Part shown: positions 30,101 through 53,995 of the stretch, piece by piece | Layout of the letters: every line of letters starts with the position of its first letter | How positions within the stretch are numbered: position 1 is the first letter of the stretch | NCBI RefSeq assembly: GCF_002355655.1 | Contig: NZ_AP017569.1 | Coordinates: forward strand, 620,001 to 684,000 | Length of the DNA: 64,000 nucleotides | Direction of reading: 5' to 3' | Source: Halorubrum trapanicum | GTDB taxonomy: Archaea > Halobacteriota > Halobacteria > Halobacteriales > Haloferacaceae | The notes under the pieces: generated by a model | Database searches by the model: none | Seen by the model: the letters and a program-made list of their open reading frames with translations, nothing else | What the model was told of the DNA's origin: nothing | Program-made: the position numbers and the translations under genes

Positions 30101-30300
30101 GACGTTTCGCGGAGGTGGTACCACGCGTCGTTGCCGCGGAAGTACACTTCGCCGTTTTGGACGAAGTTGCCGTACGACCGGAGGCGGGTCCACAGCATGA
30201 ATACGAATGCCCCGAAGAGGAGCGGGACATGATACCACCGTCTGAGGACGTCGAGGGGCGATCCCCCATCATCTCCGACGGCGTCGGTTTGCTGACTCAT
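27160..30300 (-). CDS. aglB: Archaeal oligosaccharyltransferase AglB (STT3 family)
   Basis: 1046 residues. It moves lipid-linked glycans onto Asn in N-x-S/T sites of S-layer and other surface proteins. The N-terminal ~560 residues contain about 13 transmembrane helices, with the first loop holding GNDAWYHLRE and later loops FPDHS. The soluble domain holds the catalytic WWDYG signature at about residue 620 (QSWWDYGHWITTRAER). An Ig-like C-terminal part and an Asp/Ser-rich end follow. The start ATG 30298-30300 follows a TATA box at 30336-30345. It anchors the glycan island that begins just upstream on the opposite strand. Confidence 0.97.
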   Translation of the reverse strand: MSQQTDAVGDDGGSPLDVLRRWYHVPLLFGAFVFMLWTRLRSYGNFVQNGEVYFRGNDAWYHLRETSYLLENWPNTLPFDPWTGFPYGNSAGQFGTLWDHIMAVGVWIARPIMGGTEEVMLVMAPIVGALVAVPTYFIARRFTERVPALAGAATLALFSGTFFRYSLVGFPDHSAAEVLFQSTAVLAFLVAFGVAEREKPVWELVVDQDWDALKRPLAFAAAAGVALGLYMWTWQPGVLLVGITGVFLAVKLTSDVYHGESPEPIAFVGAVAMTVAGAMQLVPLDTFSFQTTQYSLLQVILPLGVALGAVFLAWLARQWESRDLEAATFPPAVGGLIVASAVVIWLALPSLWGTLTNNLLNFVGFSATAQFRTIGEAQPPLQGASFSNFVLSQYGLAFFLALAAVLYILARPLYRSDDTNHTLYIPAALAVVGSVYAVPQAYGAVGGLVGVDWQVIGLLIAAAFLVGATLLVEYDAEELYFVVWAAFIGSAAFTQTRFNYYLAVVVAVGTAYFLQVALDALDLTSLDAVRDIEGWQVLTVAAVLAVLIVPLVGVATPVWQAGNSSGPGSVVQWDESLQWMNDNTPKPGELEGADNPMELYGTYERPADGDFEYPEGAYGVQSWWDYGHWITTRAERIPNANPFQQNAGAAADYLLAPSEEEAAEVLASQSTEGNETRYVMVDWQMASTNSKFNAPVTFYSGNETVRDFNEVLYQRVQGQNGQGGGLRFALQLRTQRYHESQMIRLYQHYGSAVEPQPVVVDWEPQTAQTQAGEQVEIKVLPTEGQAIRRFDNLSAAQAYVEEDGSAQVGGVMGVPSERLDALEHYRLVHATEAPGRSPYAQQASILAQRFGVDLQATFGESFFGALRDDFVKTFERVPGATVEGSGADPGQEVKATVELRKPDGQTFEYTQYATADEDGTFEFTLPYSTTGYEEFGPENGYTNTSVRATGPYNITTERTTGDDLYTTERFGQVEVTEGQVVGVDDAAATVELEERIIDCPSGDPECPVDDGGGSDGGDSTNSTDAGSLIGAEPVASAADLTASAAN

Positions 30301-31618: not shown

Positions 31619-31686
31619 TCGGTCAACTCCCGGAATTGGTTGGACAAGTACAAACTATTTTATTGCTCTCAGGGAATAAAATACCG

Positions 31687-32631
31687 ATGGCAAATTCGGG
31701 AACCTCCCTTCTCCAGTCCGGATTACAGATTTATCGGACACAGGGGCTCTGGCAACTGACACGTGAGGCTTTTTATTATTGTTATGAGTCTACACTCAGA
31801 GCCGGTTGTTCACTCTTCGGCGACCGACAGGGCGACAATATCTACGAGGACGACTGGGACGTTCTGTTGATTCTCGACGCTTGTCGTGTCGACCTCCTTC
31901 GAGAGGTCACTGGTGAGTATCCGTTTCTGGACGTCATCGAAACCCGGCGTTCAGTAGGAAGTACCTCTGCCGAGTGGATGAATAACACGTTCACGGCAAA
32001 GCACCAAGATGTAGTCGCAAACACCATCTACGTCACGGGAAATCCATTTAGCGACGACCATGTATCGTCCGAAGACTTTGCTGTAGTCGACGAAGTGTGG
32101 CGCAACGAGTGGGATGAGGCGGCGGAAACAATCCGTCCGCGGCCACTGACTGACCAAGCTATCGCCCGATGGCGATCGGAGGCGGACGCAGATCGCATGA
32201 TAGTCCACTACATGCAGCCACACTACCCATTCATCGGTTCCTCGATTGCTGGTGCTGGCCTGTCGCTCGAGAACTGGGGCGAGACGTTCGATTCGAGGAA
32301 CGTCTGGGAATTGCTTCGAGACGGCGAGATAGAATACGATGCGCTCTGGGATGCCTACCGAGAGAACCTCCGAGCCGTCCTCAACGACGTCGAATTGCTT
32401 ATAGAGACGATCGACGCTGACGTCGTCGCCATGACTGCCGACCACGGGAATGCTGTGGGAGAGTACGGCGTCTACGGACACCCCGCAGGAATCTGTCTCT
32501 CAGCGCTGCGCGACGTTCCCTGGGTCACCACGAATGCCGAACAGGTACGCGAATACGAACCCGAAACAACCAACGAGGCCCCAACAAACGAGGACGTATC
32601 CGACCGCTTGGAAGCACTCGGATATAAATAA
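31687..32631 (+). CDS. Alkaline-phosphatase/sulfatase-fold protein, paralogue 1
   Basis: 314 residues from ATG 31687 (MANSGTSLLQ); the open frame begins at 31636, but 31687 fits the TATA-like ACTATTTTATTG at about 31656-31667. An amphipathic N-terminal segment (IYRTQGLWQLTREAFYY) precedes the fold. Metal ligands of the superfamily are visible: Asp64/Asp69 in LDACRVD, a candidate Thr/Ser nucleophile in GSTS (residues 91-94), HYMQPHYPF, ADHGN and GHP near the end. It could remove or transfer sulfate, phosphate or phospho-alcohol groups on glycans. Two paralogues lie at 35.9 and 45.9 kb. Confidence 0.75.
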   Translation: MANSGTSLLQSGLQIYRTQGLWQLTREAFYYCYESTLRAGCSLFGDRQGDNIYEDDWDVLLILDACRVDLLREVTGEYPFLDVIETRRSVGSTSAEWMNNTFTAKHQDVVANTIYVTGNPFSDDHVSSEDFAVVDEVWRNEWDEAAETIRPRPLTDQAIARWRSEADADRMIVHYMQPHYPFIGSSIAGAGLSLENWGETFDSRNVWELLRDGEIEYDALWDAYRENLRAVLNDVELLIETIDADVVAMTADHGNAVGEYGVYGHPAGICLSALRDVPWVTTNAEQVREYEPETTNEAPTNEDVSDRLEALGYK

Positions 32632-35856: not shown

Positions 35857-35980
35857 GACGAAAGGTAGAATTGAAGTGCTGGCGTCCGTAGTTACTGTGG
35901 ATGAAATCTATCATGAGGCGGGTTAGCAGTATCTACAGGAAGGAGGGTCTAGTCGCGCTTCTGCGGCGGTCAAGCAATTA
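35857..35980 (+). repeat. Duplicated leader plus first codons, copy A
   Basis: These 124 bases align without gaps to 38232-38355, with about 14 differences. Bases 35857-35900 (non-coding leader) differ at only two positions. The rest encodes the N-terminus MKSIMRRVSSIYRKEGLVAL and the following RRSSN. The matching copy begins a gene of an unrelated enzyme family. Confidence 0.85.
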
Positions 35981-36866
35981 CGTGTTGGAGTCCGCCTCAA
36001 AAAAATTAGGGCAACCAATCTTGGAGTGGAGATACCCGGACGACGGGTTCAACGTGCTGGACGAGGACTGGGACACGTTGGTCATCTTTGACTGTGCGCG
36101 ATATGATGTCTTCACAGACGTTGTCGGGGAAGATGTCTCTCCTCGACGGTCCGTTGCCTCCGTCACTGCGAACTTCCTCAGGCGGACGTTCTCTAAACGA
36201 ACTGCCCACGACACCGTCTACCTGTCCGCGAATCCCATCGTCGGGAAGAACGAGGAACACCTGAACACGTACAAACTTGTGAAATCGTGGGAGAGTCGTT
36301 CCAGTACGACGAGGAAAGGACAGGAGAGCCCAGGGATCATGGATCCCAAACCGCTGCTGGAACGATCCGTCGAACTCCACGAGAAGCACCCGAACAAACG
36401 CCACGTCGTCCATCTGCTTCCCCCGCACACCCCTCACGAACTGAAAGACGGAGGCCCAGTTCCCGAAGACTCACCCTACCGGAACTACAAAGCGGCGATG
36501 AAACACGGAATCTCGCCGGCCGAGATGTTGGATGTCTACGAAGAAAACCTGCTGAACGCGGTCCAATTAACCAAGGAGGCCCTCGCAGACGTCGACGGAA
36601 AGGTGGTGTTCACGGCCGATCACGGGGAGCTACTTGGGGAAGGGATGCCGCTCTGGATGAAAGTGCTCCACCACCGCTGGGGGAACCAGTTCTCGAAGTA
36701 CGACTTTGGCCACTACAGCAACTGTAACGTCAGCGAGTTGCGAGAGGTACCTTGGTACGTCTTCCAAGATGGTGACCGACGAGAGATCGTTGCCGAAGAG
36801 CCCATCGGTTCGACACGCGTGGACGAATCCGTCGAGGCGCATCTGGAGGCACTTGGTTACAGATAG
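35901..36866 (+). CDS. Alkaline-phosphatase/sulfatase-fold protein, paralogue 2
   Basis: 321 residues, ATG 35901. An N-terminal amphipathic helix (residues 1-30) is shared almost exactly with the nitroreductase-like gene at 38276. The fold then shows DEDWDTLVIFDCARYDVF (metal Asp), RSVASVTANF (Ser/Thr nucleophile region), HVVHLLPPHTPH, VFTADHGELLGEG and DFGHYSN. It lacks a secretion signal, so a cytoplasmic or membrane-peripheral glycan-modifying role is likely. Paralogues at 31.7 and 45.9 kb share the ACRYD/ADHG pattern. Substrate unknown. Confidence 0.75.
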   Translation: MKSIMRRVSSIYRKEGLVALLRRSSNYVLESASKKLGQPILEWRYPDDGFNVLDEDWDTLVIFDCARYDVFTDVVGEDVSPRRSVASVTANFLRRTFSKRTAHDTVYLSANPIVGKNEEHLNTYKLVKSWESRSSTTRKGQESPGIMDPKPLLERSVELHEKHPNKRHVVHLLPPHTPHELKDGGPVPEDSPYRNYKAAMKHGISPAEMLDVYEENLLNAVQLTKEALADVDGKVVFTADHGELLGEGMPLWMKVLHHRWGNQFSKYDFGHYSNCNVSELREVPWYVFQDGDRREIVAEEPIGSTRVDESVEAHLEALGYR

Positions 36867-36897: not shown

Positions 36898-38190
36898 TCA
36901 CTCCTCGAACACGTTGTCGAACAGGGCTCGCTCCTTGATGCTCTCCGCTGTGCTGGCTATCCCCGCCGACTCGGTGCCGCTGTTGCGGTCCATCCGGACG
37001 ACGGCATCCGTCAGTCGCTGCACGTCGAGTCCGTCTCGTACGTCGAAAAAATACTGGCTCTGGTCGAACCGTCGCAGCAGTTCGTCGTATTTCACGGCCC
37101 ACCCGATCGCCACGACCGGTACTCCGTGTTTGTATCCGTGAACGATGGAGTGATATCTCGACGCAATCATGTATTCGAACTGTGCGATCAACGCCTCAAG
37201 TTCGGGCGCGTCGAAGTCGTCGTCGAGCATATGGACGGCATTGACTCGCGTAAATGGTTCGCAGATCGCCTTGCAGAGTTCTAAGTCCTCGGTCGAGTGA
37301 CGCAGAACATATACCTCCTTGTCCAGCTCCAGCAGGCAATCGATTAGCTGCTCGTACATCGCATAGAACAATTCATTTGACGTTCGTTCGAACACCTTTG
37401 AATTGGGCACGATTCCGACGGCATCGTCGGGGAGGGTCCGAACCTCGATACCACGGTCGGTCACGTAGATGTTCTCCAAGTCGTACTCGCCGCCCTGAAG
37501 AACAATGTCGAACTCTCGCCGGACGTTTGCTCTCGTGTACGGTTCGAGTGCCCTGACCCCGTCTTCCTCCCGAGGACAGATCATCTTCGGGTACGGAAGA
37601 TATGTTCTCATGAGCGGATCGAGGAGGAGTCTCATCGGCAGGGAGTAGTCGAACGGACCGATTGACTGGGGGAGAATGTACATCGGAACACTGTACATCC
37701 GCGCGAGGAGGACCGTCGTGAGATACGAAAACGACATTCTGGCCCCCATCTGTGAGGACAGAGCGTATCCGTTGATGTCCAAGATCATGCGACAGTCTTC
37801 GAACGCGTTTCGAACTGACCGGTGGACTTCAGTCGGGTGCGACTGAGTGTTCGTCAGGTTCGCGTACGGTGCTAGGAGTGAAAGCTGAATCTCCGAGTCC
37901 CATGGAAGGATTTCAAACGTGTACGCGTCCTTCTCCGCAGGGTCGCGAAGATAGTCCTGTTCGGACAGCAGATAGACTCTCTTGTTCGGGTATCTTCTCG
38001 AGATCTCGTCGACCACGGTGTACGTCATCGCCTGAGCACCCTTGTTGAATAGCTCCCCACCGGAAATGAGGATCGACGACCCATCGTCACGTGTTCCCGA
38101 ATGATCGTCGCTCGTCAGGCGATCGTATAATGCTCGGGCTTCCGCGGAGGAAACGAGAGAGATGTTACGCACGACGTCGCGAATCGACAT
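36898..38190 (-). CDS. Polysaccharide pyruvyl transferase family protein
   Basis: 430 residues from ATG 38188-38190 (MSIRDVVRNI). The frame extends to 38289, but that would overlap the start of the divergent gene. Family features are ISGGELFNKGAQAMTYTVVDEI near the start, ICPREEDGVRAL in the middle, and the C-terminal MIASRYHSIVHGYKHGVPVVAIGWAVKYDELL, the conserved R-x-H-x3 region of CsaB-type enzymes. These enzymes add pyruvate ketals from phosphoenolpyruvate to sugars, giving glycans a negative charge. It is divergent from the nitroreductase-like gene. Confidence 0.88.
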   Translation of the reverse strand: MSIRDVVRNISLVSSAEARALYDRLTSDDHSGTRDDGSSILISGGELFNKGAQAMTYTVVDEISRRYPNKRVYLLSEQDYLRDPAEKDAYTFEILPWDSEIQLSLLAPYANLTNTQSHPTEVHRSVRNAFEDCRMILDINGYALSSQMGARMSFSYLTTVLLARMYSVPMYILPQSIGPFDYSLPMRLLLDPLMRTYLPYPKMICPREEDGVRALEPYTRANVRREFDIVLQGGEYDLENIYVTDRGIEVRTLPDDAVGIVPNSKVFERTSNELFYAMYEQLIDCLLELDKEVYVLRHSTEDLELCKAICEPFTRVNAVHMLDDDFDAPELEALIAQFEYMIASRYHSIVHGYKHGVPVVAIGWAVKYDELLRRFDQSQYFFDVRDGLDVQRLTDAVVRMDRNSGTESAGIASTAESIKERALFDNVFEE

Positions 38191-38231
38191 GTGTACAGCC
38201 AAGACTGTCAGCGAATATAATACACTCGGTA

Positions 38232-38355
38232 GACGAAAGGTGGAATTCAAGTGCTGGCGTCCGTAGTTACTGTGGATGAAATCTATCACGAAGAAGATTA
38301 GCAGTATTTACAAGGAGGAGGGTCTTGTCGCGCTTCTGAGGCGGTCGAGCAATTT
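38232..38355 (+). repeat. Duplicated leader plus first codons, copy B
   Basis: Gap-free match to 35857-35980 (about 14 of 124 bases differ). The 44-base leader before ATG 38276 is 42/44 identical; coding similarity fades after codon 27. A TATA-like ATATAATA at about 38213-38220 lies just outside the repeated part. Confidence 0.85.
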
Positions 38356-39391
38356 CATCACGGATCGATTCTTTCAGACGGTCGTCTGGAACGCCGTACC
38401 GAAAGATCGGACGCTTCGGCTCATCGCCCGATCTCGAGTTCTGACGGCACTTTACTTTCTGCTTTCGGGGACCTTCTACCGGGAGCAGCGGTCGGTACTC
38501 TGGGGGATCGCCTCCTATAGCGAGTCCGAAGAGACGGGTGACGAACCCCACTTCCGCATCATCCGTAACGTCCACCGGATCGAGAAGGGGCTGTCCATGA
38601 AGGATCGGCGGCCGGTGTTCGCCGAATCGTATATCGAGCAGGTCGTTGCCGATCTTCGGTCCACGTGGGACCGTGACGGTGATAAACGACTTGAGTGGGC
38701 AGTGGATGTACTGGCGGAGTACTTCGATACCGTCGAAATGACGCCGCCAATCTCTGCCGCGAAGTCGAATTTCGACGAGTTCCTCGCCGAGATAGCGTAT
38801 CGCCCGACCGATCAAACGCCGTTTCGTCGGGACGAGATCGACGGATCCGGGGTCCGCCCGGAAGCGTTGGAACAGCTTTCGAGACAGCGAACGAGTACCC
38901 GGTGGTTCGAAGACAAAGACGTCCCCCGAGAGAAACTGGACAGTGCGATCAAGGTGGCGTTACAGTCTCCCAGCGCCTGTAACCGGCAGTCCTACGAATT
39001 TCGACTGTTCGACGACCGGGAACTGATCGATTCGGTCTCGTCGCTCGCGATGGGGGCAACCGGCTACCGAGAGAACATCCCGTGTCTTGGAGTAATCGTC
39101 GGTAAGCAGCGTGCGTACTTCGACGACCGGGATCGACACGTCATCTACATCGACGCCAGTCTTGCGGCGATGGCTTTCCAGTTCTCCCTGGAGACGCAGG
39201 GACTGGCCTCGTGCTGTATCAACTGGCCCGCTATTCCGCATCGAGAGCGGAAAATCGAGACCCTGTTGAACCTCGACCCCGACGAATGCGTCGTCATGAT
39301 GATGGCGATTGGGTACCCAGATCCGGACGAGAAGGTCCCGTACTCCAAGAAGATGGGGGTCGAGGACGCCCGCTCCTACAACGAGCTGTGA
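38276..39391 (+). CDS. Nitroreductase-family protein with N-terminal extension
   Basis: 371 residues. Residues 1-27 copy the N-terminus of the sulfatase-fold gene at 35901. Residues 60-185 form an unassigned segment with RIIRNVHRIEKGLSMKDRRP. Residues 200-371 are a nitroreductase fold: RTSTRWFEDKDVPREKLD, ALQSPSACNRQS (FMN-binding region), DASLAAMAFQFSLETQGLASC and CVVMMMAIGYPD. Nitroreductase-like proteins of this shape occur in bacterial capsule loci beside pyruvyl transferases; their reaction is not established. Location suggests a redox step on a glycan precursor. Confidence 0.82.
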   Translation: MKSITKKISSIYKEEGLVALLRRSSNFITDRFFQTVVWNAVPKDRTLRLIARSRVLTALYFLLSGTFYREQRSVLWGIASYSESEETGDEPHFRIIRNVHRIEKGLSMKDRRPVFAESYIEQVVADLRSTWDRDGDKRLEWAVDVLAEYFDTVEMTPPISAAKSNFDEFLAEIAYRPTDQTPFRRDEIDGSGVRPEALEQLSRQRTSTRWFEDKDVPREKLDSAIKVALQSPSACNRQSYEFRLFDDRELIDSVSSLAMGATGYRENIPCLGVIVGKQRAYFDDRDRHVIYIDASLAAMAFQFSLETQGLASCCINWPAIPHRERKIETLLNLDPDECVVMMMAIGYPDPDEKVPYSKKMGVEDARSYNEL

Positions 39392-39393
39392 AG

Positions 39394-40629
39394 TCAGTTC
39401 GATTCCCCACCCGACGAGCGATCGATTTCGTCCAGTAAATGTCGCAACTGGGACACGTCAACGTGAAGGTCGCTGTTGTACGTGTCGTCAGCGGTGGAAA
39501 CGCCTCGTAGGCAGTGGTAATCGTGCCCGAGCAGGCGTGCAATTTCGAAGTACGGCGGTTTGATCACGTCGTTGAATATCTCGACGATGGCACAATCGTC
39601 TGCCCAGATCATGTCGGTCAACCCTGCGCCGTGGACGCCGACGATCAGCGACGCCCTGCTGAACAGCTCGACCTGTTCGTCGAACCGCAGATCCTCGGTC
39701 GTGTAAGTCTTGATATCGTACTCCTTTAGGACGGTCGAAACCTCCGCTCTGTTCGTTATCTTCCGGGTTCGAGCCTTCTCGCGGGAGACGAATATCCGCT
39801 CGTCGCCGCAGGCAGGCGCTGCGCCGTTCCGGTCGACTTCCGACCCCACCCGTTCGTTCAGCCATCGACAGACCGGGACCGTTGGTTCCGTGAAACTCGG
39901 CTGAACTAGGTTGTCCACGGAGACGACGCCACCCTCCCAACCAATACAGTCCTCGAGACTGTACCCCAGCAGTTCGAGAGATTCCTCGATGTACGACGGT
40001 GGCTCCGCCGGGACGACGAGTTCCACCTGGACGTCGCGGTTCCGCTTCAGGTACTCCAGCGCCCGAAGTTTCGGCAGATGCTCGATCACCCAGTGATAGT
40101 AGTTGTCCCAACTGTTGACCAGCGAGCAGGCGTACGACAGTTCTTGGTGGGGATCGCGGCTGATCATCTCGGCGATGGTTCTTCGGTCGGTCAGGGTGCG
40201 CGCTACTGCCTGCTTCAATCTGTACCCCTCCTCTCCGGATGGCTCTATGGCCTCACAGACGATGGTGTCGTCGTCGATGACGGGAATCGCGTCTGGTCCC
40301 ACAAGTTCAACCTCGGGAACGACGAATAGATGTTGGTCGGTGTAGGAGTATCGGGGCAGGTTCCTGAACCCCCTGGAAGACGGGTCGACGCCGAACGGTG
40401 TCCGTGCGTCGGGGGCTGCCGTGGACTCGTCCAACTTCACCTGCCAGGTGATCCGGTGGTCGTCGATCAGATCCTCCGTTCTGGCCAGATCGAACTGCGT
40501 CAGTACGATAGGGGCCACCGCTTTAGACGCTCTGTCGAGGGCCAGCGCTCGCCCGGCCCGGTACGTGGCGAGTGGGCCATCTCGTTCCCACTTCCTTCGC
40601 GCTTTGCCGACGAGCGCTCCCACTCTCAT
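39394..40629 (-). CDS. Family 61 glycosyltransferase (DUF563)
   Basis: 411 residues from ATG 40627-40629 (MRVGALVGKA); the extra 42 codons upstream are unlikely. The N-terminus has an amphipathic KARRKWERDGPLATYRAG. Then come the GT61 hallmarks: WDNYYHWVIEHLPKLRALE, IFVSREKARTRKITN and LIVGVHGAGLTDMIWAD. GT61 includes plant xylosyl/arabinosyl and bacterial capsule transferases. Its stop codon is two bases from that of the nitroreductase-like gene. It follows the kds operon on the same strand after a 180-bp gap. Confidence 0.88.
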   Translation of the reverse strand: MRVGALVGKARRKWERDGPLATYRAGRALALDRASKAVAPIVLTQFDLARTEDLIDDHRITWQVKLDESTAAPDARTPFGVDPSSRGFRNLPRYSYTDQHLFVVPEVELVGPDAIPVIDDDTIVCEAIEPSGEEGYRLKQAVARTLTDRRTIAEMISRDPHQELSYACSLVNSWDNYYHWVIEHLPKLRALEYLKRNRDVQVELVVPAEPPSYIEESLELLGYSLEDCIGWEGGVVSVDNLVQPSFTEPTVPVCRWLNERVGSEVDRNGAAPACGDERIFVSREKARTRKITNRAEVSTVLKEYDIKTYTTEDLRFDEQVELFSRASLIVGVHGAGLTDMIWADDCAIVEIFNDVIKPPYFEIARLLGHDYHCLRGVSTADDTYNSDLHVDVSQLRHLLDEIDRSSGGESN

Positions 40630-40809
40630 TATTACGTTTGTATTGTTTGTAACAGTATATTCGGGTTTCGGATCCGGAACGGCTGATATCTCGGTACCCA
40701 GCGGAGGTGAAACGAACACGTCCTCCCGATCCAGTCTAGAGATTTCCTGCTTCAAACCGACACTGCTCTAGGTCGTTTTCGCGGGACATTGATCGGATGA
40801 CATCCGGTC

Positions 40810-41814
40810 CTAAGGGTTCCGTGTGCTGGTCAGTCCCTCCTCCATGATGTCGTGGAGGTGGATGATTCCCTCAAACGTGTTGTCGCTGTCGGCGACGACG
40901 AGTTGCGTAATGTTATTTTCTTCGAGGAGTTCGAGCGCTTCGACCGCCGAAACGTCGGGGGTGATGGTCACCGGGTCGGTGATCATCACCTCCTCGGCCA
41001 CGACGTCGTGGAGATCCGTGTCGTCCTGAAGGAGTCTCCGGATGTCGCCGTCGGTCAGTATCCCTAAGACCTGCCCGTGCTGGTTCTGTACGACGGCGAT
41101 GCCCTTGCCACCCTTGCTCATTTTCAGTGCGACCTCGGCGAGCGTATCATCCGGGTGGGTCCTCGGAATGTCGCCGTAGAGTAGGTCGCTCGCGTCTAGG
41201 AGGAGTCGTTTCCCGATAGTACCGCTCGGGTGGAACTGCCCGAAGTCGTCTTTCGTGAACCCCTTCCGTTCCATGAGTGCGTTCGCGATACAGTCACCGA
41301 TCACGATGGTCGTCGTGGTGCTGGCCATAGGAACGAGATCGACGACAGACCCCTCCTCTGAAATCCGCGTGTCGACGATCCGGTCAGCACTGCGACCAAG
41401 TTTCGAATCGGGACTCGACGTGATGGTGATCGTCATGGGATCGAACGGCTCTATGAACTTTTGGAGTTCCACGATTTCGTTCGTGTTCCCGCTGTTCGAC
41501 ACGAAAATCACGATATCGTCCTCGGCCAGGACTCCGATGTCACCGTGTAACGCCTCAACCGGGTGAATGAAGTGGGAGGAGACGCCGATGCTATTGAACG
41601 TCGACACTATTTTTTTGGCGACATCTCCCGATTTTCCGACGCCGGTGAACACGATCCGACCGTCGGAGGCGTCGATCATCTCTGCGACCCTCTTTATCTG
41701 GTCGACCGTCTCCTCATTCAGGAGGTCCGCGACGCAAGCGGCTTGGAGTTCGATCGTCCGTTCTATGGTCGTGATCGTGTCGTCGCCCGTCGAGTCCGCA
41801 CGGTCTCTACTCAT
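40810..41814 (-). CDS. kdsD: Arabinose-5-phosphate isomerase (KdsD/KpsF/GutQ type)
   Basis: 334 residues. The N-terminal SIS domain shows IVFTGVGKSGDVAKKIVSTFNSIG, HPVEALHGDIG and IFVSNSGNTNEIVEL. Two CBS domains follow (about residues 210-270 and 275-330, with DGDIRRLL and the ending HLHDIMEEG). This is the standard SIS-CBS-CBS layout and length of KdsD. It converts ribulose-5-P to arabinose-5-P, the Kdo precursor. Its ATG overlaps the end of kdsA, so the genes are translationally coupled. The neighbours kdsA and kdsC-kdsB make the function much firmer than homology alone would. Confidence 0.93.
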   Translation of the reverse strand: MSRDRADSTGDDTITTIERTIELQAACVADLLNEETVDQIKRVAEMIDASDGRIVFTGVGKSGDVAKKIVSTFNSIGVSSHFIHPVEALHGDIGVLAEDDIVIFVSNSGNTNEIVELQKFIEPFDPMTITITSSPDSKLGRSADRIVDTRISEEGSVVDLVPMASTTTTIVIGDCIANALMERKGFTKDDFGQFHPSGTIGKRLLLDASDLLYGDIPRTHPDDTLAEVALKMSKGGKGIAVVQNQHGQVLGILTDGDIRRLLQDDTDLHDVVAEEVMITDPVTITPDVSAVEALELLEENNITQLVVADSDNTFEGIIHLHDIMEEGLTSTRNP

Positions 41815-42631
41815 CTTTGACGGTGGAGTCGATCGCTAGCCACTGCTCAACCAACGAGTCCACGCGGCTGAGCGGTAGCTGCGTCGCGGCGTCACACTTC
41901 GCTGACGGTGGATCTGGATGTACTTCCGCGAATATCCCGGCAACTCCGGTCGCAAGCGCTGCGCGCGCCAGCGTGGGTGCGAACCGACGATCACCACCGC
42001 TGCTGTCTCCATGTGAACCGGGTCGCTGTACGGAGTGTGTCGTGTCGAAGACGACCGGTTTGCCGATGTCCTTCATGATGTCTATATTTCGGAAGTCTAC
42101 AACGAGATTATTGTAGCCGTACATGGCGCCGCGTTCGCAAAGGAGGATCCGTTCATTGCCCGTGGATTCGATCTTGTCGACGACGTTTTCCATTCCCTCC
42201 GCGGAGAGAAACTGCCCCTTCTTCACGTTGATCGGGAGCCCGGTTTCTCCGGCGGCTGTCAGCATGTCCGTCTGCCTGGAGAGAAATGCAGGCACTTGGA
42301 GAACGTCCACGACATCCGCGACGCGAGACGCCTGATCTGGCGTGTGAAAATCGGTGATGATCGGGAGGTCGTATCGAGTCTTCACCATTTGGAGGATTTC
42401 GAGCCCCCGATCCAGTCCAGGCCCGCGATACGAGTCGATCGATGACCGGTTCGCCTTATCGAACGAGCTCTTGAAAACCACGTCGATGTCGTGTGTCTCG
42501 CCGACGGTTTTCAGCGTCTCCGCCGTCTCCAGTACCTGCTCTTCGGACTCGATAACGCAGGGACCAGCGATCAGAAAGAACTCCGAGTCGTTAGCGACGG
42601 ATATCCGGTCGCTAATTTTCATTCTCGTCAT
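41807..42631 (-). CDS. kdsA: Kdo-8-phosphate synthase
   Basis: 274 residues from ATG 42629-42631 (MTRMKISD); ATG 42620-42622 (MKISDR) is also possible. It condenses arabinose-5-P with PEP. Near-complete family motifs are present: IAGPCVIES, FKSSFDKANRSS, SYRGPGLDRGL, ITDFHTPDQ, PAFLSRQTDML, NVKKGQF, ILLCERGAMYGYNNLVVD, VVFDTTHSVQRPG, SGGDRRFAPTLARAA and HPDPPSAKCDA. The Cys in AGPC (residue 25), with the His, Glu and Asp in the last motifs, places it with the metal-dependent class. It overlaps kdsD, and its start overlaps or abuts the kdsC-kdsB stop. Confidence 0.95.
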   Translation of the reverse strand: MTRMKISDRISVANDSEFFLIAGPCVIESEEQVLETAETLKTVGETHDIDVVFKSSFDKANRSSIDSYRGPGLDRGLEILQMVKTRYDLPIITDFHTPDQASRVADVVDVLQVPAFLSRQTDMLTAAGETGLPINVKKGQFLSAEGMENVVDKIESTGNERILLCERGAMYGYNNLVVDFRNIDIMKDIGKPVVFDTTHSVQRPGSHGDSSGGDRRFAPTLARAALATGVAGIFAEVHPDPPSAKCDAATQLPLSRVDSLVEQWLAIDSTVKDE

Positions 42632-43811
42632 TACCACGAAGTTGTTGCTCTACGACCGCAATATCTCTTTCTACATTGACCTCCTTCGACTCGTAGTCGG
42701 TTTCGACGGTCTGAATATCGTATCCGTTTTCGAGCAGGCGTAGTTGCTCCAAGTTCTCGCGAGTTTCCAAATCGGAGCGCATACTCACGTAATCCAACAG
42801 CTGTTCGGTCTCGAAGGCGTAGAGGCCTATGTGCTTGTAAGTTGAGCCGAGCTGGCCGTCTGACGGGATGAGTGACCGAGAGAAGTAGAGTGCCCGGTTC
42901 TCGCTGTCGGTGACGACCTTCACCACGTTCTCGTCGTTCAGTTCTGATTCCTCGTCGATGGGTGATATCGGCGTCGCAACCCGTGGGGCGGTCGTCCGGA
43001 GCGTCTCCACCACCGAATCGATGACATCCGGTCGAATGAGGGGCTCGTCACCCTGGATGTTGACGGTAAACATCGCACCGACTTCACGGGCCACCTCGGC
43101 GACCCTGTCTGTCCCGGTTTGATGGTCGGGACTCGTCATCATCGCCGTTCCGCCGACCGATTCAATCGTATCGACGATACGCTCGTCATCGGTCGCCACC
43201 ACGACCCGATCGAGGGTCGTTGCCCGATTCGCGCGTTCGTATACGTGGGTGATCATCGGCTTTCCGTCGATGTCGACGAGTGGTTTTCCTGGAAGCCGCG
43301 TGGAGCCGTATCTAGCGGGTATTACTCCCAGAACGGTGCCGGAACCATTCCGTAGCGTGTCCAGAATATCTCGCACGGCCCCCTCGCCACCGTCGAAGCT
43401 ACTCACATAGTCACACCGGCGCCTCACCCGCCGCACTACGTCCGCTGGACAGCAGGCAACTCCGACGCTCTCCATCGCTTCCAGGTCCGTCGGCTCGTCC
43501 CCAATGTACGCCACCTGCGACCGATCGATCCCCCGTCGTTGGACTATCGATCTGACTATTCCGCTTTTGTCGGAAACGCCCTGATAGAACTCCTCGACAT
43601 CAAGTTCTTCTGCGCGTCGCGCGACCGCCTGGGACTCGCGAGACGTGACGATGACAAAGTCCCGGTCCTCTTCCTGGATCCACCGCACGATCCCGTAACC
43701 ATCTTTTACGTTGAACGACTTAAACAGCTCTTCGTCCTTCCCGTAGTGAAGCTTCGAGTCAGTGAGGACGCCATCCACGTCGCTGATTACCAGCCGGATC
43801 GTATCTCCCAT
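42612..43811 (-). CDS. Fused Kdo-8-P phosphatase and CMP-Kdo synthetase (KdsC-KdsB)
   Basis: 399 residues, two domains in one chain. Residues 1-155 are a C0-type HAD phosphatase: ISDVDGVLTDSKLHYG, VTSRESQAVARRAEEL and YIGDEPTDLEAM, matching KdsC. Residues 158-399 are a KdsB cytidylyltransferase: GVIPARYGSTRLPGKPLVDIDGKPMI, ATDDERI, TGTDRVAEVA and NIQGDEPLI, ending in NLEQLRLLENGYDI. Together they turn Kdo-8-P into Kdo and then CMP-Kdo. In bacteria these are normally separate proteins. The start is ATG 43811, 46 bp after the ABC transporter. Confidence 0.94.
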   Translation of the reverse strand: MGDTIRLVISDVDGVLTDSKLHYGKDEELFKSFNVKDGYGIVRWIQEEDRDFVIVTSRESQAVARRAEELDVEEFYQGVSDKSGIVRSIVQRRGIDRSQVAYIGDEPTDLEAMESVGVACCPADVVRRVRRRCDYVSSFDGGEGAVRDILDTLRNGSGTVLGVIPARYGSTRLPGKPLVDIDGKPMITHVYERANRATTLDRVVVATDDERIVDTIESVGGTAMMTSPDHQTGTDRVAEVAREVGAMFTVNIQGDEPLIRPDVIDSVVETLRTTAPRVATPISPIDEESELNDENVVKVVTDSENRALYFSRSLIPSDGQLGSTYKHIGLYAFETEQLLDYVSMRSDLETRENLEQLRLLENGYDIQTVETDYESKEVNVERDIAVVEQQLRGNDENEN

Positions 43812-43857: not shown

Positions 43858-45654
43858 CTACCCGCTCGACTGGATGGCGTAGAGGTCGGCGTACTCCCCG
43901 TCCTCCACGATCAATTCCTCGTGCGTCCCCGACTCGACGATTCGGCCCTCCTCGACCGTGTGTATCTGATCGGCGTTCTGCACCGTGGACAGGCGGTGGG
44001 CGATCGTAATTATTCCGTGGTCGCGTTCCATGGCCTCGATGGAGGCCTGGACCTCTCGTTCGAGGTTGGAGTCGAGGTCGCTCGTGGCCTCGTCCAAGAC
44101 AAGAAAGTCGGCGTCGGTCAGGAGCGCTCGGGCCAGGGCGACCCGCTGACGCTGCCCGCCGGACAGTCTGACACCGTCGTCACCAAGTTGCGAGTCGAAT
44201 CCGTCCGGGAGGTCGTCGATGAATTCGTCGACCCGGGCTATCTCACAGACTCTGTTGACTTCGCGCTGATCGGCGTCTCTGTTGCCGACCGTGATGTTCC
44301 CTCGGAGCGTATCGTTGAAGATGTACGGCTGCTGTCTGACGACTGCGATGCGCTCCCTCCACGCGCGCAGGTCGAACTCCTCGATTGGCGTTCCGTCCGC
44401 GGTGATCCGTCCAGTGTCGGGGTCGTAGAACCTCGCGAGGAGCGAAACGATGGTCGACTTCCCTGCGCCCGACTGGCCGACGAAGGCGACGAACTCGTCC
44501 CGGTCGACCGAGAACGAAATCCCGTTCAGCACAGTCTCGTCATCCGTGTACGAGAAGTGAACGTCGTCGAAGGCGATGGACGAAACCTCGTCCGGTTCGA
44601 CGTCGCCATCCGATTCTCGCTGGGCCTGAAACGTGTCGACGAACTCCTGCGTGCGAACCAGGTGTGACAGGTTTCCCTCGACGTGGTAGACGCTGCTGTT
44701 CAGACGACTGACAAGCGGTGTAAGTCGAAACATCGCGAGAAAGAAGATCCCGAGCGCGCCGAGGTTGAGACGACTATAGGTAAATCCGATGTAGATGAGG
44801 AAGAAGAGCGTGAGCGCGGCGGCGAGGTCGTAGAAATTCTGAATGGCGGCCTTGTTTCGCGCGAGGTCGATCGACGACGAGCGGTACTCGCTGATCCACT
44901 CGTCGAACTTCCTGAAAACCTCCGTTGCGAGACCGAACAGTTTAACATCCCGGATCCCTTGTGTCCCGGCCTGCGCAGCCTCCTGAACCCGTTCGTTTGC
45001 GTTAGCCACTCGCGAACCGACTGTGTAGGCCGGTTCGATGACCTCCCGCAGGAGGTACGTGATTCCACCGAGTAGCACGATGGCCAACACCGTCATCCGC
45101 GGAGCAATGTAGAACATCACCGCGAGGTAGACCAGCGCCAGGAAGAGGGTTTCCAGCGACTTCACTGCGAATTTGATCACCTTTCCAGAGTATCGGGTCT
45201 CCGTGATGATCGCGTTGAGAATGTCGTCCGACCCCTCCTGATCGAAGTACTGGACTTGGGCGTCCAGCGCCGTGTCGAACGTTCGAGTCCGCAGCGTTTC
45301 CTCGTAGTTCATTTGGAGAATTGATCGGAGCCATGCCACGACAAATGACGATGTGAACCGAATTGTCATAGCTAGTCCAACTCCGATGATCAGAAACTCC
45401 AGATCGAACGGGATACTGAGGATTGAGTACACTCGCAGGAAGACTCCCAAAAACCCGTCTGCCTGGGTGATCGGATCTTCAGCCTGTGCGACCTCTAGGA
45501 TTGGCCAGATGAAGCTCAGTCCGATCCCCTCAAGTAACGCAGTGAAACCGCCGAAAGCAACAATAATAAGAGTGAGCTTTGGGCGATACACTACAACTCG
45601 CCGGAGGGCAGTGATCTTCTCCTCCCAGGTAATATTCTCCTCGGAGCCAGACAT
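43858..45654 (-). CDS. ABC exporter/flippase (MsbA/PglK-like)
   Basis: 598 residues: a six-helix transmembrane domain (residues 25-330) fused to a nucleotide-binding domain (360-598). It has Walker A GQSGAGKST, Q-loop VRQQPYIF, signature LSGGQRQRVALARAL, Walker B FLVLDEATSDLD and the H-loop IAHRLSTV. The half-transporter layout fits lipid or lipid-linked oligosaccharide flippases such as MsbA and PglK. As first gene of the abc-kdsCB-kdsA-kdsD transcript, it probably moves a Kdo-containing lipid-linked glycan outward; that is inference. Confidence 0.88.
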   Translation of the reverse strand: MSGSEENITWEEKITALRRVVVYRPKLTLIIVAFGGFTALLEGIGLSFIWPILEVAQAEDPITQADGFLGVFLRVYSILSIPFDLEFLIIGVGLAMTIRFTSSFVVAWLRSILQMNYEETLRTRTFDTALDAQVQYFDQEGSDDILNAIITETRYSGKVIKFAVKSLETLFLALVYLAVMFYIAPRMTVLAIVLLGGITYLLREVIEPAYTVGSRVANANERVQEAAQAGTQGIRDVKLFGLATEVFRKFDEWISEYRSSSIDLARNKAAIQNFYDLAAALTLFFLIYIGFTYSRLNLGALGIFFLAMFRLTPLVSRLNSSVYHVEGNLSHLVRTQEFVDTFQAQRESDGDVEPDEVSSIAFDDVHFSYTDDETVLNGISFSVDRDEFVAFVGQSGAGKSTIVSLLARFYDPDTGRITADGTPIEEFDLRAWRERIAVVRQQPYIFNDTLRGNITVGNRDADQREVNRVCEIARVDEFIDDLPDGFDSQLGDDGVRLSGGQRQRVALARALLTDADFLVLDEATSDLDSNLEREVQASIEAMERDHGIITIAHRLSTVQNADQIHTVEEGRIVESGTHEELIVEDGEYADLYAIQSSG

Positions 45655-45931: not shown

Positions 45932-46921
45932 ATGGACAAGATCAGACGGTCAAGAGAAATACTAACTAATGAGGGGTTCTTCTCCTTCTGCCGATCGGCA
46001 ACCACGCACTTTTTTTTGGATTCGTACAATAATCACTGGGAACAGAACCACGACTCGCCAACGCCGATTCCCGAGATGGACTGGGATAACCTGATCGTTC
46101 TCGATGCGTGCCGGTACGACGAGTTCTCCAGATTGTTCGACATGGATACACCAGTGAACTCTCGGGTCACCTTCGGGTCCAGCACCCCGGAATTCCTGCA
46201 GCGCAACTTCTTGGACAGAGAGCTGTTCAACACAGTCTATCTCACGGCAAACCCCAAATCACTCAAGCTCGAACGTGGTGACTACGGATCCGATCCGATA
46301 TTTCACGCCCTGATTCCGGTACTCGACGACTGGAATGAAGAGTACCATACGGTGATGCCGAAAACGATGACGGAACGGGCGCTGTCGATCGAGGAAGATT
46401 TTCCACAGAAGCGACTTCTGATCCACTTCGTCCAACCTCACTTGCCGTATATTGGCGACACGGCGAGATCGATCCAGCGTGAACTCGATATCGCGATCGG
46501 AGGGTGGGAGTTTGACTGGCGAGATTACACGGAGGAGAGGTCGTCCATCGATGTCGATCGGATCACCTTTGAGGGGATCACGAGAGACGAATTCCCCCTG
46601 ACAGTGGAGGACTATCTCCAGATGTACCGCGAGTCGCTATCGATTACGCTGTCGCACGTGGCTGAACTGGTGGAGGGACTCAGTGGTAAAACCGTCATAA
46701 CTGCGGATCACGGCGAAATGTTCGGTGAACGTATTTTCCCGTTGGGCAAGCGAATATATGGTCATCCGCCGGGGCTCCGCACCGACGAACTCTGTATCGT
46801 GCCACACGTGGAATTCGATGGGACCGACCGGAAGCAGATCCGGGCCGAGGCACCCATCGAGCGGGACAGTTACGACGAGGAGTTGATCGAGCATCGATTG
46901 ACCGCGCTGGGATACCAGTAG
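45932..46921 (+). CDS. Alkaline-phosphatase/sulfatase-fold protein, paralogue 3
   Basis: 329 residues, ATG 45932. An N-terminal amphipathic segment (RRSREILTNEGFFSFCRSATTHF) precedes WDNLIVLDACRYDEF, SRVTFGSSTPEF (candidate nucleophile), LIHFVQPHLPYIG, VITADHGEMFGE and YGHPPG. This is the most complete superfamily pattern of the three paralogues. No signal peptide. It starts divergently from the ABC-kds operon and is followed by the GT-B gene on the same strand, so it may act on the same glycan. Substrate unknown. Confidence 0.78.
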   Translation: MDKIRRSREILTNEGFFSFCRSATTHFFLDSYNNHWEQNHDSPTPIPEMDWDNLIVLDACRYDEFSRLFDMDTPVNSRVTFGSSTPEFLQRNFLDRELFNTVYLTANPKSLKLERGDYGSDPIFHALIPVLDDWNEEYHTVMPKTMTERALSIEEDFPQKRLLIHFVQPHLPYIGDTARSIQRELDIAIGGWEFDWRDYTEERSSIDVDRITFEGITRDEFPLTVEDYLQMYRESLSITLSHVAELVEGLSGKTVITADHGEMFGERIFPLGKRIYGHPPGLRTDELCIVPHVEFDGTDRKQIRAEAPIERDSYDEELIEHRLTALGYQ

Positions 46922-47021: not shown

Positions 47022-48692
47022 ATGAGTGAGGAACTCCACGTGTACTTCGAAGAAGGTGACTGCCCGGACCCCGAAGACGGTTCAAACTACGTCATCCGGA
47101 ACAACCTAGGGGCCGAGGACGATTTCTGGTTCAACACGCTCACCGGACTGGAATTGCCCCATGAGAGCCGTTTCTCCTACGACAAGTTCTACGCCTATCT
47201 CCTCCGTCCGAGTGGAGGGAACCTCTACGTGTACCTCGAAACGTATCAGAAACTGGAGACGAAGATCGAAAATCGGGGATTCAAGCGGATCGTCCCCCAC
47301 GACCTCAACGAGGGGTATCTGACGGTTCTGAAAGATCTATGTGACGGAGCAGATGTCGAACTCGTCCGCGACTCGGCGTCGTCCGGGGGAAGCAACCGGC
47401 GTGTCATCTTCACGCTCTCAACGCTACTGTTACTGTTCGACTTCGTGCTCTCGTCGGTGTTAGGCAGGATCCTCCCGTCCACGGCGGCGGAGCCAGAAGA
47501 CGCTGTCCTGTTTGTTCCGTTCCTAGGCCGAACCGAGAGCATGTATCCAGTGGTTGAAGAGGTGGGCGGTGCCGTGCGGATACTCACGACGAGATCCTGG
47601 TCGAGTCACCTCCTCAGGGGAGACTTCGTCGACCTCTACCGCGACCCCGATCGCCGTTCGATATCCGCGTACGCGAACGGAAGGCGAATCCTCAGGATGG
47701 TCCGGTCCCTCCTCGGGTTGCAGTGGTCCCTCCTCGTGGGAGAGCTGGAACTGTCCACTCGGCTGTCGGAGTACCTGGAAGGGAACCATCGACTTACCGC
47801 CCCCCACACCGTCGAGTACGCCTGTGAAAAAATTCTTGCCGAGCATACGGACAGCGTACTGAAATCCGCGATAATGCGAGCGGCGGTTCAAGAGATGGAC
47901 CCTGAGGAGATCGTCGTCGGAGGACTGAGTCCCAAGGACATCGAATCCCTGCGGACTGCCGACGAACTCGACGCAGGACTGCATTATATTCCCCACTCGA
48001 TCACCCACGAGGACGAGTTCGTCCCTCCGAGCGTCGAGACGAAAGTGTACACCACCGGGCCTGCAGACAACCGTCTCTTCAAGAAGCACTACGAGGAATC
48101 GGACCGGCCAGTCCTAATTCCCACGGGGAAACCGAACGTGGACGACCTGCTCGCAAACCTGGATGGTGTGGAAGCCAAGTCCGAATCTCACAGGATCGTC
48201 ATTGGGACACAGGCCTACGACGACTGGATGCGCGAACAGTTCTTCCTCGATTCACTGGATGCGATAGCGAACTGTGGATATGATCAGACCGTCGTGGTGA
48301 AGATTCACCCCTCCGAGGGGACGGATTTCTATCGACAGTTGATTGCAGAGGCCGAAACCAGCTACGAGTTCGATATCGTGATCCGGGTGAAGGGGCTCCG
48401 TGAAGTGCTCTCGAAAGCGGACATTCTGCTGACCATCAACTCGAACATCGGAGTCGAGGCCATTATCTTGGACACGTACTGTATCTCGTACAACCCATTC
48501 GAACCGTTCACGTTCCGCTCGTCCTACATCGACGGGAACCACGTCCCGTACACGACTGCAGTTCCGGAACTGACGGAGGAGCTTGACCGGGTGATCGGTG
48601 CCGACTCGATTCGGAGTACCCAGCGTGAGCATCTCGATCGGTCCTACGTCTTCGGAGGGAGTGCGGAGCGGATCGCGGAACGGATACGATGA
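47022..48692 (+). CDS. Large GT-B-like glycosyltransferase, candidate Kdo/acid-sugar transferase
   Basis: 556 residues, ATG 47022. A hydrophobic stretch lies at about residues 126-147. The C-terminal half resembles capsule GT-B enzymes (KpsS/KpsC or CDP-glycerol-transferase-like): TVVVKIHPSEGTDFY followed by LREVLSKADILLTINSNIGVEAIILDTYCISYNPF, the HP and S-N-x-G-x-E-A pattern that binds CMP- or CDP-activated donors. The N-terminal half is unassigned. Because CMP-Kdo should be made by the operon 3 kb away, it is the best candidate in the window to use it. That link is inference. Confidence 0.65.
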   Translation: MSEELHVYFEEGDCPDPEDGSNYVIRNNLGAEDDFWFNTLTGLELPHESRFSYDKFYAYLLRPSGGNLYVYLETYQKLETKIENRGFKRIVPHDLNEGYLTVLKDLCDGADVELVRDSASSGGSNRRVIFTLSTLLLLFDFVLSSVLGRILPSTAAEPEDAVLFVPFLGRTESMYPVVEEVGGAVRILTTRSWSSHLLRGDFVDLYRDPDRRSISAYANGRRILRMVRSLLGLQWSLLVGELELSTRLSEYLEGNHRLTAPHTVEYACEKILAEHTDSVLKSAIMRAAVQEMDPEEIVVGGLSPKDIESLRTADELDAGLHYIPHSITHEDEFVPPSVETKVYTTGPADNRLFKKHYEESDRPVLIPTGKPNVDDLLANLDGVEAKSESHRIVIGTQAYDDWMREQFFLDSLDAIANCGYDQTVVVKIHPSEGTDFYRQLIAEAETSYEFDIVIRVKGLREVLSKADILLTINSNIGVEAIILDTYCISYNPFEPFTFRSSYIDGNHVPYTTAVPELTEELDRVIGADSIRSTQREHLDRSYVFGGSAERIAERIR

Positions 48693-52672: not shown

Positions 52673-53995
52673 ATGAACATCTCCATCATCGGCAGCGGCT
52701 ACGTCGGCACGACGGTCGCCGCCTGCTTCGCCGATCTGGGCCACGACGTGGTGAACATCGACATCGACGAGTCGGTCGTCGAGACGATCAACGCCGGCGA
52801 GGCGCCGATCCACGAGGAGGGGCTCGCCGACCTCATCGCCGAACACGCCGGCCCGGAGGGCACGGGTCGGCTCCGGGCGACCACCGACTATGCGGCCGTC
52901 CTCGACACCGACGTCACCTTCCTCTGTCTCCCGACCCCGCAGAACGACGACGGCAGCATCGACCTGTCGATCATGGAGGCGGGCGCGAGCCAACTCGGGG
53001 AGGAACTCGCCGCCAAAGAGGGCTGGCACACCGTCGTCGTCAAGAGCACGGTCGTTCCCGGCTCGACGGCAGACACCATCACCCCGATCTTGGAAGCGGA
53101 GAGCGGTAAGACCGCCGGCGAGGCGTTCGGCGTCGGCATGAACCCGGAGTTCCTCCGCGAGGGGACGGCGGTCCACGACTTCCTCAATCCGGACAAGGTC
53201 GTCCTCGGCGCGGACGACGACCGCGCGCTAGAGGACATGCGCGCGGTGTTCGCCCCGCTCGTCGAGGCGGCCGACGCGCCGGTCGTCGAGACCGACACGC
53301 GAACCGCCGAGATGATCAAGTACGCCAACAACGGCTTCCTCGCGGCGAAGATCAGCCTCATCAACGACATCGGGAACATCTGTAAGGAGCTCGGTGTCGA
53401 TGCCTACGAGGTCGCCGACGCGATCGGCCTCGACGACCGGATCAGCGAGCAGTTCCTCCAGAGCGGCGTGGGGTGGGGCGGGAGCTGTTTCCCCAAGGAC
53501 GTCGCCGCGATCATCGCGGCCGCGGAGGAGACCGGCTACGACCCGGCGGTGCTCAACGCGGCGACAGAGGTCAACGATCGCCAGCCGGGGCGGCTGGTCG
53601 AACTCCTCGCCGACCACCTCACCGAGCGCCGCGACCGCGGGTTCGACGGGGCGACAATCGCCGTGCTCGGACTGGCGTTCAAACCCGGCACCGACGACAT
53701 GCGGAACTCCCGCGCCATTCCGGTGATCGAGGACCTCCAAGCGCGCGGCGCGGCGGTGACCGCCTACGACCCGGTCGCGGCCGACAACGCCCCGAACTAC
53801 GTCGACGACGTAACCTACGCCGACTCGGCCGCGGCGGCGCTCGACGGCGCCGACGGCGCGGTCGTCGTCACCGACTGGGACGAGTTCGCCGCGCTCGACG
53901 CGGAGTTCGACGCGATGGCGACCCCGATCGTCGTCGACGGCCGACGGATTATCGAGCGCCGCGACGGAATCACGTACGAGGGACTGACTTGGTAG
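52673..53995 (+). CDS. aglM: UDP-glucose 6-dehydrogenase, AglM-like
   Basis: 440 residues. It oxidises UDP-glucose to UDP-glucuronate in two NAD-dependent steps. Evidence is the Rossmann start [52 protein letters not shown], the middle helix [19 protein letters not shown], the catalytic Cys in [12 protein letters not shown] (about residue 270) and [16 protein letters not shown]. It shares the strand with aglF and the epimerase. Core-like GC content shows the island's right edge returns to native composition here. Confidence 0.94.

Follow-up and report, generated by a model that had tools for sequence, protein, structure and literature searches.

Does a haloarchaeon make 3-deoxy-D-manno-octulosonate (Kdo), a sugar of bacterial outer membranes, where it marks Gram-negative lipopolysaccharide (LPS), and of the walls of plants and algae? 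The question is raised by a 64,000-nucleotide stretch of the Halorubrum trapanicum genome (contig NZ_AP017569.1, positions 620,001 to 684,000; hereafter the window, with positions counted from its first nucleotide), in which three overlapping genes on one strand, kdsD, kdsA and a kdsC-kdsB fusion (kdsCB), were predicted from their motifs to encode the complete pathway to cytidine monophosphate (CMP)-Kdo. Our analysis makes it fairly likely that CMP-Kdo is made, that the protein of a nearby open reading frame (ORF), ORF 47022-48692, adds Kdo to a lipid-linked glycan, that an ATP-binding cassette (ABC) protein flips this glycan, and that AglB may transfer it to protein. The original prediction held that a Kdo pathway is not established in archaea, and this agrees with searches of the open-access literature, which turned up no account of archaeal Kdo or of an archaeal pathway to it (subscription papers and preprints lay outside the scope of the search); the genes may well carry kds labels already where public databases are annotated automatically.

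The three genes stand exactly at the coordinates first given, and their products pass the NCBIfam cut-offs, equivalog cut-offs being applied to KdsA and KdsB and subfamily cut-offs to KdsC and KdsD. KdsA scores 380.7 bits with TIGR01362 (cut-off 314) and 397.9 with NF003543 (cut-off 242), KdsB 201.6 bits with TIGR00466 (155.2), KdsC 144.2 bits with TIGR01670 (107.0) and KdsD 253.3 bits with TIGR00393 (203.7); with the stricter equivalog model NF007019, KdsC stays below the cut-off (133.5 vs 208). Pfam is consistent with these calls, with a SIS and two CBS domains in KdsD, and domain by domain the nearest solved structures in the PDB are bacterial Kdo enzymes: the top matches of KdsA are all Kdo-8-phosphate (Kdo8P) synthases, and the two parts of the fusion match 2r8e (KdsC) and 1gq9/3oam (KdsB). 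Within the fusion, the Kdo8P phosphatase occupies approximately residues 1-155 and the CMP-Kdo synthetase approximately residues 160-395. The overlap of kdsA with kdsD is 8 nucleotides, and the true start of kdsA is likely the ATG at 42622, within the kdsCB stop region, which would give a kdsCB/kdsA overlap of 11 nucleotides.

The motifs of the families are in place. KdsA contains AGPC, SFDKANRSS, DTTHS, AEVHPDP and AKCDAATQLPL; KdsC retains the haloacid dehalogenase motifs DxD, Ser, Lys and GDxxxD (DVDGVLTD, VTSRES, SDKSG and GDEPTD); alignment to 2xhz places in KdsD the Lys, two Glu and His that match K59, E111, E152 and H193 of Escherichia coli KdsD; and alignments show that KdsB retains PARYGSTRLPGK and QGDEP. 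The active sites, whose degeneration would have spoken against the prediction, thus hold the known catalytic residues, with one departure that it had missed, an Asn for a Mg-binding Asp in KdsB, which is taken up below.

In a survey of 391 haloarchaeal genomes, KdsA above the Kdo8P cut-off was found in six, from five genera and three families, and in none of the approximately 20 other members of the source genus among the genomes listed. All six loci keep the order kdsCB-kdsA-kdsD, the fusion and the overlaps, kdsCB being cut by a contig end in one, and because the same three-gene order and fusion recur in five other haloarchaeal genomes the cassette is not a product of chance. The six KdsA copies are 78-90% identical across the three families, and alignments show the metal-site Cys, His, Glu and Asp and the KANRSS segment in every one. 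Assembly contamination was ruled out, the cassette lying inside a 2.84-Mb contig of a genome that is 99.55% complete. Genome-wide there is a single CTP_transf_3-type synthetase, the cassette KdsB, and a whole-genome search returned no NeuB. Family cut-offs, catalytic residues, the recurrence of the cassette and this lack of a NeuB or a second synthetase in the genome support the proposed complete CMP-Kdo pathway well, and we consider synthesis of CMP-Kdo, a very close 3-deoxy-octulosonate included, probable in this haloarchaeon.

Which protein might use the activated sugar? In retaining Kdo glycosyltransferases (GTs), QXXXD is the nucleophile motif and (K/R)XHP the CMP-binding motif (PMC12887879, PMC10148158). 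ORF 47022-48692 (hereafter ORF 47022), 3.7 kb from the KdsB domain, is the sole window protein with both motifs at the right spacing (Q397AYDD401 and K427IHP430), and it is the only match, a weak one, to PF05159 (KpsC/KpsS-like) in the genome; its relatives in genomes G145, G275 and G029 pass the PF05159 cut-off. A scan of 215 proteins for QXXXD and KXHP gave five hits where approximately 0.55 were expected by chance; three of the five are PF05159-like proteins, one each from the window, G145 and G296. The AlphaFold model (13-sequence alignment; mean predicted local distance difference test score, pLDDT, 81.5) has the GT-B fold. In the whole genome, no match to PF04413, the family of WaaA-type transferases, exceeds the cut-off.

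Across the 391 genomes, a family profile built from six relatives recovered ten full-length members. By motif search, QXXXD followed by KXHP is present in nine of the ten, the Q-to-D match being less clear in G389, and the nearest CTP_transf_3-type gene lies 0.4-11.3 kb away in all nine members whose position could be judged; in the tenth genome, G376, transferase and synthetase match are on separate contigs. The KdsB match is strong in five of these genomes and weaker, of NeuA-like type, in the other five, and since half of them carry the latter, the family most likely uses CMP-ulosonates generally, with Kdo as the sugar in the window and in G145. Compared with the PDB, the profile has eight matches under E = 1, and every one is a CMP-ulosonate GT (SiaD, WbbB, KpsC). 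PF05159 matches are commoner in kdsA-positive genomes (4/6 vs 32/385, p = 8e-4) and in genomes with a strong KdsB (7/13 vs 29/378, p = 3.6e-5), both tests ignoring phylogeny. PF05159 by itself was rejected as a Kdo-transferase marker, its presence in 32 of 385 kdsA-negative genomes making it too weak.

Several observations weigh against the reading of a Kdo pathway served by ORF 47022. The product of the enzymes is a prediction from the genes. All six haloarchaeal KdsB copies have Asn at the equivalent of Asp219, the first Asp being retained; in Aquifex KdsB, Mg-A is held by two strictly conserved Asp, D95 and D219 (PMC3149649). ORF 47022 scores below the PF05159 cut-off (15.8 vs 20 bits), the E-values of the PDB profile matches are marginal (0.015-0.86), and the 50 Foldseek matches listed for the model are other GT-B proteins, first and mostly UDP-GlcNAc 2-epimerases, with neither KpsC nor WbbB among them. 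The family also occurs beside the weaker NeuA-like synthetases and is not exclusive to Kdo, and of the six kds loci, those of G007 and G017 have no PF05159 match; another transferase may serve there.

The Asn of KdsB, N222 when numbering begins with the KdsB part (42612-43340), sits in a conserved EVNVxxDI string, and it is also found in KdsB of G469, an archaeon outside the haloarchaeal class; bacterial KdsB proteins adjoining kdsA and stand-alone haloarchaeal KdsB-like proteins retain Asp at the Mg-A position. As the flanking sequence is strongly conserved, the exchange would seem to be tolerated or adaptive rather than a sign of decay. For the transferase, the marginal E-values and a Foldseek result that does not single out KpsC mean that membership in GT99, GT107 or GT140 is not established; an action like that of a Kdo transferase is favoured for the family, and for ORF 47022 itself we lean slightly towards transfer of Kdo from CMP-Kdo.

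In the proposed route, KdsD would convert ribulose-5-phosphate to arabinose-5-phosphate in the cytoplasm, KdsA would join this with phosphoenolpyruvate to give Kdo8P, the KdsC domain would remove the phosphate, and the KdsB domain would use CTP to form CMP-Kdo or the CMP derivative of a very close 3-deoxy-octulosonate. The GT-B protein of ORF 47022 would pass Kdo to a lipid-linked glycan under assembly, which the ABC protein, similar to MsbA and PglK, would flip, and AglB may attach the flipped glycan to the S-layer protein. The genes in question are collected in the table.

Features of the window and, in the last row, KdsB-like genes of other haloarchaeal loci
Feature	Position	Strand	Family or basis
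AglB oligosaccharyltransferase	27160-30300	minus	STT3/AglB domains; island edge
Low-GC glycan island	30001-52000		49-59% GC vs 65-74% outside; contains the listed window genes except those of AglB and the UDP-sugar dehydrogenase
Polysaccharide pyruvyl transferase family protein	36898-38289	minus	PF04230, 60.1 bits
GT61-family glycosyltransferase	39394-40755	minus	PF04577, 77.1 bits; 54 bp downstream of kdsD
kdsD/kpsF, arabinose-5-phosphate isomerase	40810-41814	minus	TIGR00393; SIS + 2 CBS
kdsA, Kdo-8-phosphate synthase, Cys (metal-dependent) type	41807-42637	minus	TIGR01362, NF003543
kdsC-kdsB fusion, 399 aa	42612-43811	minus	TIGR01670 + TIGR00466
ABC exporter/flippase, MsbA/PglK/HepA type	43858-45654	minus	NCBIfam + Pfam; 46 bp upstream of kdsCB
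Candidate CMP-Kdo (ulosonate) transferase, GT-B, 556 aa	47022-48692	plus	Motifs, gene neighbourhood, PDB profile, AlphaFold
UDP-sugar dehydrogenase	52673-53995		Far flank of island, opposite AglB
Stand-alone KdsB-like genes	L094:6730-7476, L095:10914-11669, L097:12162-12998, L098:8929-9711, L099:8814-9596, L100:8995-9759, L101:8971-9732		

The ABC, kdsCB, kdsA, kdsD and GT61 genes run consecutively along the minus strand, the only gaps being those of 46 and 54 bp, and therefore likely form one five-gene operon, with the GT61 gene probably the last. Homologues of the ABC gene (56-68% identical) occur in three of the five other kds loci, adjoining kdsCB in G145 and G017 and approximately 17 kb away in G007, and the protein would fit the flipping of a lipid-linked glycan. 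AglB adjoins the kds locus in G007 as well, and its position beside kds in both genomes suggests N-glycan assembly. The idea that Kdo decorates a surface glycan has thus gained support from a candidate transferase in the same region, from an ABC protein of flippase type encoded beside kdsCB and from an AglB gene bordering the island; Kdo itself, its transfer, its acceptor and its route to the surface are inferred, and attachment to an AglB-dependent N-glycan specifically is proposed tentatively, at somewhat less than even confidence.

Other destinations and products have to be weighed. CMP-Kdo could be made and its Kdo built into a polymer, capsule-like or glycolipid in nature, that the ABC protein exports, as would suit an ABC gene that adjoins kdsCB on the same strand and has counterparts of flipping or export type at three of the five other kds loci. 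Among characterized transferases, the closest are those that make the Kdo linker in group 2 capsules (PMC10148158), and a Pseudomonas plasmid carries kdsA, a fused kdsBC and kpsF by a capsule gene; however, no KpsMT/KpsDE-type exporter was recognized among the island genes scanned, and AglB borders both the island here and the kds locus in G007, and we regard such a polymer as rather unlikely. A shift of KdsB to a Kdo relative, such as a 3-deoxy-octulosonate with an amino, methyl or other modification, is improbable: the Asp-to-Asn exchange in all haloarchaeal copies, a score of the KdsC part with KDN-9-phosphatase (below cut-off) and a methyltransferase gene behind kdsD in G296 and G253 would agree with it, but KdsA retains the Kdo8P motifs and the equivalog score, and no aminotransferase of the 8-amino-Kdo type was recognized in the window proteins scanned, although no search was aimed at KdnA/KdnB.

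That the enzymes have decayed or serve another pathway is very improbable. KdsA belongs to the superfamily of 3-deoxy-D-arabino-heptulosonate 7-phosphate (DAHP) synthases (PF00793), and KdsB is without one metal ligand, but the 380.7 bits of KdsA with the Kdo8P model compare with approximately 138 or less with DAHP models, scores on which a DAHP synthase was rejected, and catalytic motifs and the full cassette are kept at high identity in six genomes of three families. Finally, the Kdo transferase may be another protein. One candidate is the GT61 protein, whose gene comes next after kdsD on the minus strand at a distance of 54 bp and has homologues in G253 and at two loci where a KdsB-like gene stands alone. 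Another is an MptE-like protein, genes for which take the place of PF05159 genes in G007 and G017, with a further one in G217. We hold a transferase of this kind to be doubtful, ORF 47022 being the only window protein with both motifs and the only PF05159-like one in the genome, and its family tracking CMP-sugar synthetases. The preferred reading remains CMP-Kdo synthesis with ORF 47022 as the candidate transferase.

How the cassette came to these archaea is partly visible in the KdsA tree that the original prediction had proposed alongside a search of archaeal genomes. The six haloarchaeal copies form one clade (support 100/99), whose position among bacteria the tree does not settle. KdsD of G296 shares 75% identity with its counterpart in G253, a member of another family, and 61% with the one in G145, a congener of G296; a methyltransferase gene is next after kdsD in both G296 and G253, and the two observations together suggest that haloarchaeal families have exchanged the cassette. 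KdsA of G469 groups with Prevotella (100/98), which indicates that archaea acquired kds genes more than once and contradicts a single archaeal origin. In a phylum-level draw of genomes, kds clusters were seen in three non-haloarchaeal archaea, complete in G469 (L077/L078) and G563 (L079/L080) and partial in G613 (L081), and the KdsC-like protein of G469 has an extra C-terminal part resembling the CBS region of KdsD. Direct descent of the fusion from bacteria is unsupported, the sole bacterial fusion seen having the reverse order, KdsB-KdsC; it lies on the Pseudomonas plasmid pL21564-1 (L075:3971-5257) beside kdsA, kpsF and a capsule gene.

A scan of genome contigs with KdsA gave bacterial matches only. 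KdsA-like matches in Gram-positive phage records reach 26-33% identity, and in Synechococcus phage S-SCSM2R (L130:2974-4395) kdsA and kdsB are annotated. In seven haloarchaeal genomes without kdsA, a KdsB-like synthetase stands alone; these proteins share 61-82% identity with one another and approximately 40% with the KdsB of the window, and their genes have recurring neighbours that encode a D-2-hydroxyacid dehydrogenase, a short-chain dehydrogenase/reductase and a GT2 protein; this looks like a separate CMP-activated sugar pathway.

Further genes of the island and of related loci deserve mention. Genes for polysaccharide pyruvyl transferase family proteins directly follow kdsD in G007 and G017, where MptE-like genes also lie behind kdsD. 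Three paralogous sulfatase/phosphatase-like proteins of approximately 320-330 residues are encoded in the island (31636-32631, 35901-36866 and 45932-46921), with homologues in most kds loci, and a nitroreductase-family protein (38276-39391) is flanked by opposite-strand genes. A similar short N-terminal segment (e.g., MKSITKKISSIYKEEGLVALLRRSSN) stands on unrelated island enzymes, as if it were a common targeting tag; its carriers (35901, 38276 on the plus strand, 31636, 45932 and 39394 in the window, and L044:5851, L044:8208 and L046:1548) comprise sulfatase-like, nitroreductase, GT61, capsule-type GT and methyltransferase proteins.

Whether some haloarchaea display Kdo on surface glycans, by means of a laterally spread cassette and an undescribed archaeal family of CMP-ulosonate transferases with ORF 47022 as type member, we judge to be evenly poised. 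If so, Kdo would extend to archaeal surfaces as one more sugar of the archaeal glycan alphabet, kds genes or Kdo in environmental samples would be no proof of Gram-negative LPS, and the transferase family would point to the way other haloarchaeal CMP-sugars, of the legionaminic or other types, are attached. The gene set is defined and testable, in a group with genetic tools.

The nearest case in the literature is Halorubrum sp. PV6, which makes legionaminic acid from a glycan gene cluster with the NeuB- and NeuA-type proteins LegI and LegF (PMC6137143). Both are CMP-activated ulosonic acid pathways in haloarchaea; however, the PV6 sugar has nine carbons and depends on NeuB, which the source genome lacks. 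For haloarchaeal LegI and LegF, Haloferax volcanii has already served as a host. The ABC protein shares the exporter architecture of Campylobacter PglK and of MsbA but scores below both equivalog cut-offs. With the retaining beta-Kdo transferases of GT99 (WbbB), GT107 (KpsC) and GT140 (KrkA), ORF 47022 shares the GT-B fold, QXXXD and (K/R)XHP, whereas its sequence similarity to them is marginal, its N-terminal part is longer and its family is a distinct, haloarchaeal one. In WbbB, KpsC and KrkA, Asp-to-Cys variants trap a Kdo adduct of +220 Da. The cassette resembles the bacterial CMP-Kdo pathway and capsule-type kds clusters in having all four activities by family cut-offs, and the Burkholderia and Pseudomonas plasmid clusters in having kdsA, kdsC/kdsB and kpsF as gene neighbours. 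It differs from them in its archaeal host, in a fusion with KdsC ahead of KdsB (the reverse of Pseudomonas), in the Asn at the KdsB Mg site and in its surroundings, a glycan island with aglB, rather than LPS genes, alongside. The enzyme types are thus already known, and what is new is the archaeal setting, the KdsC-KdsB fusion with its Asn and the transferase family coupled to it.

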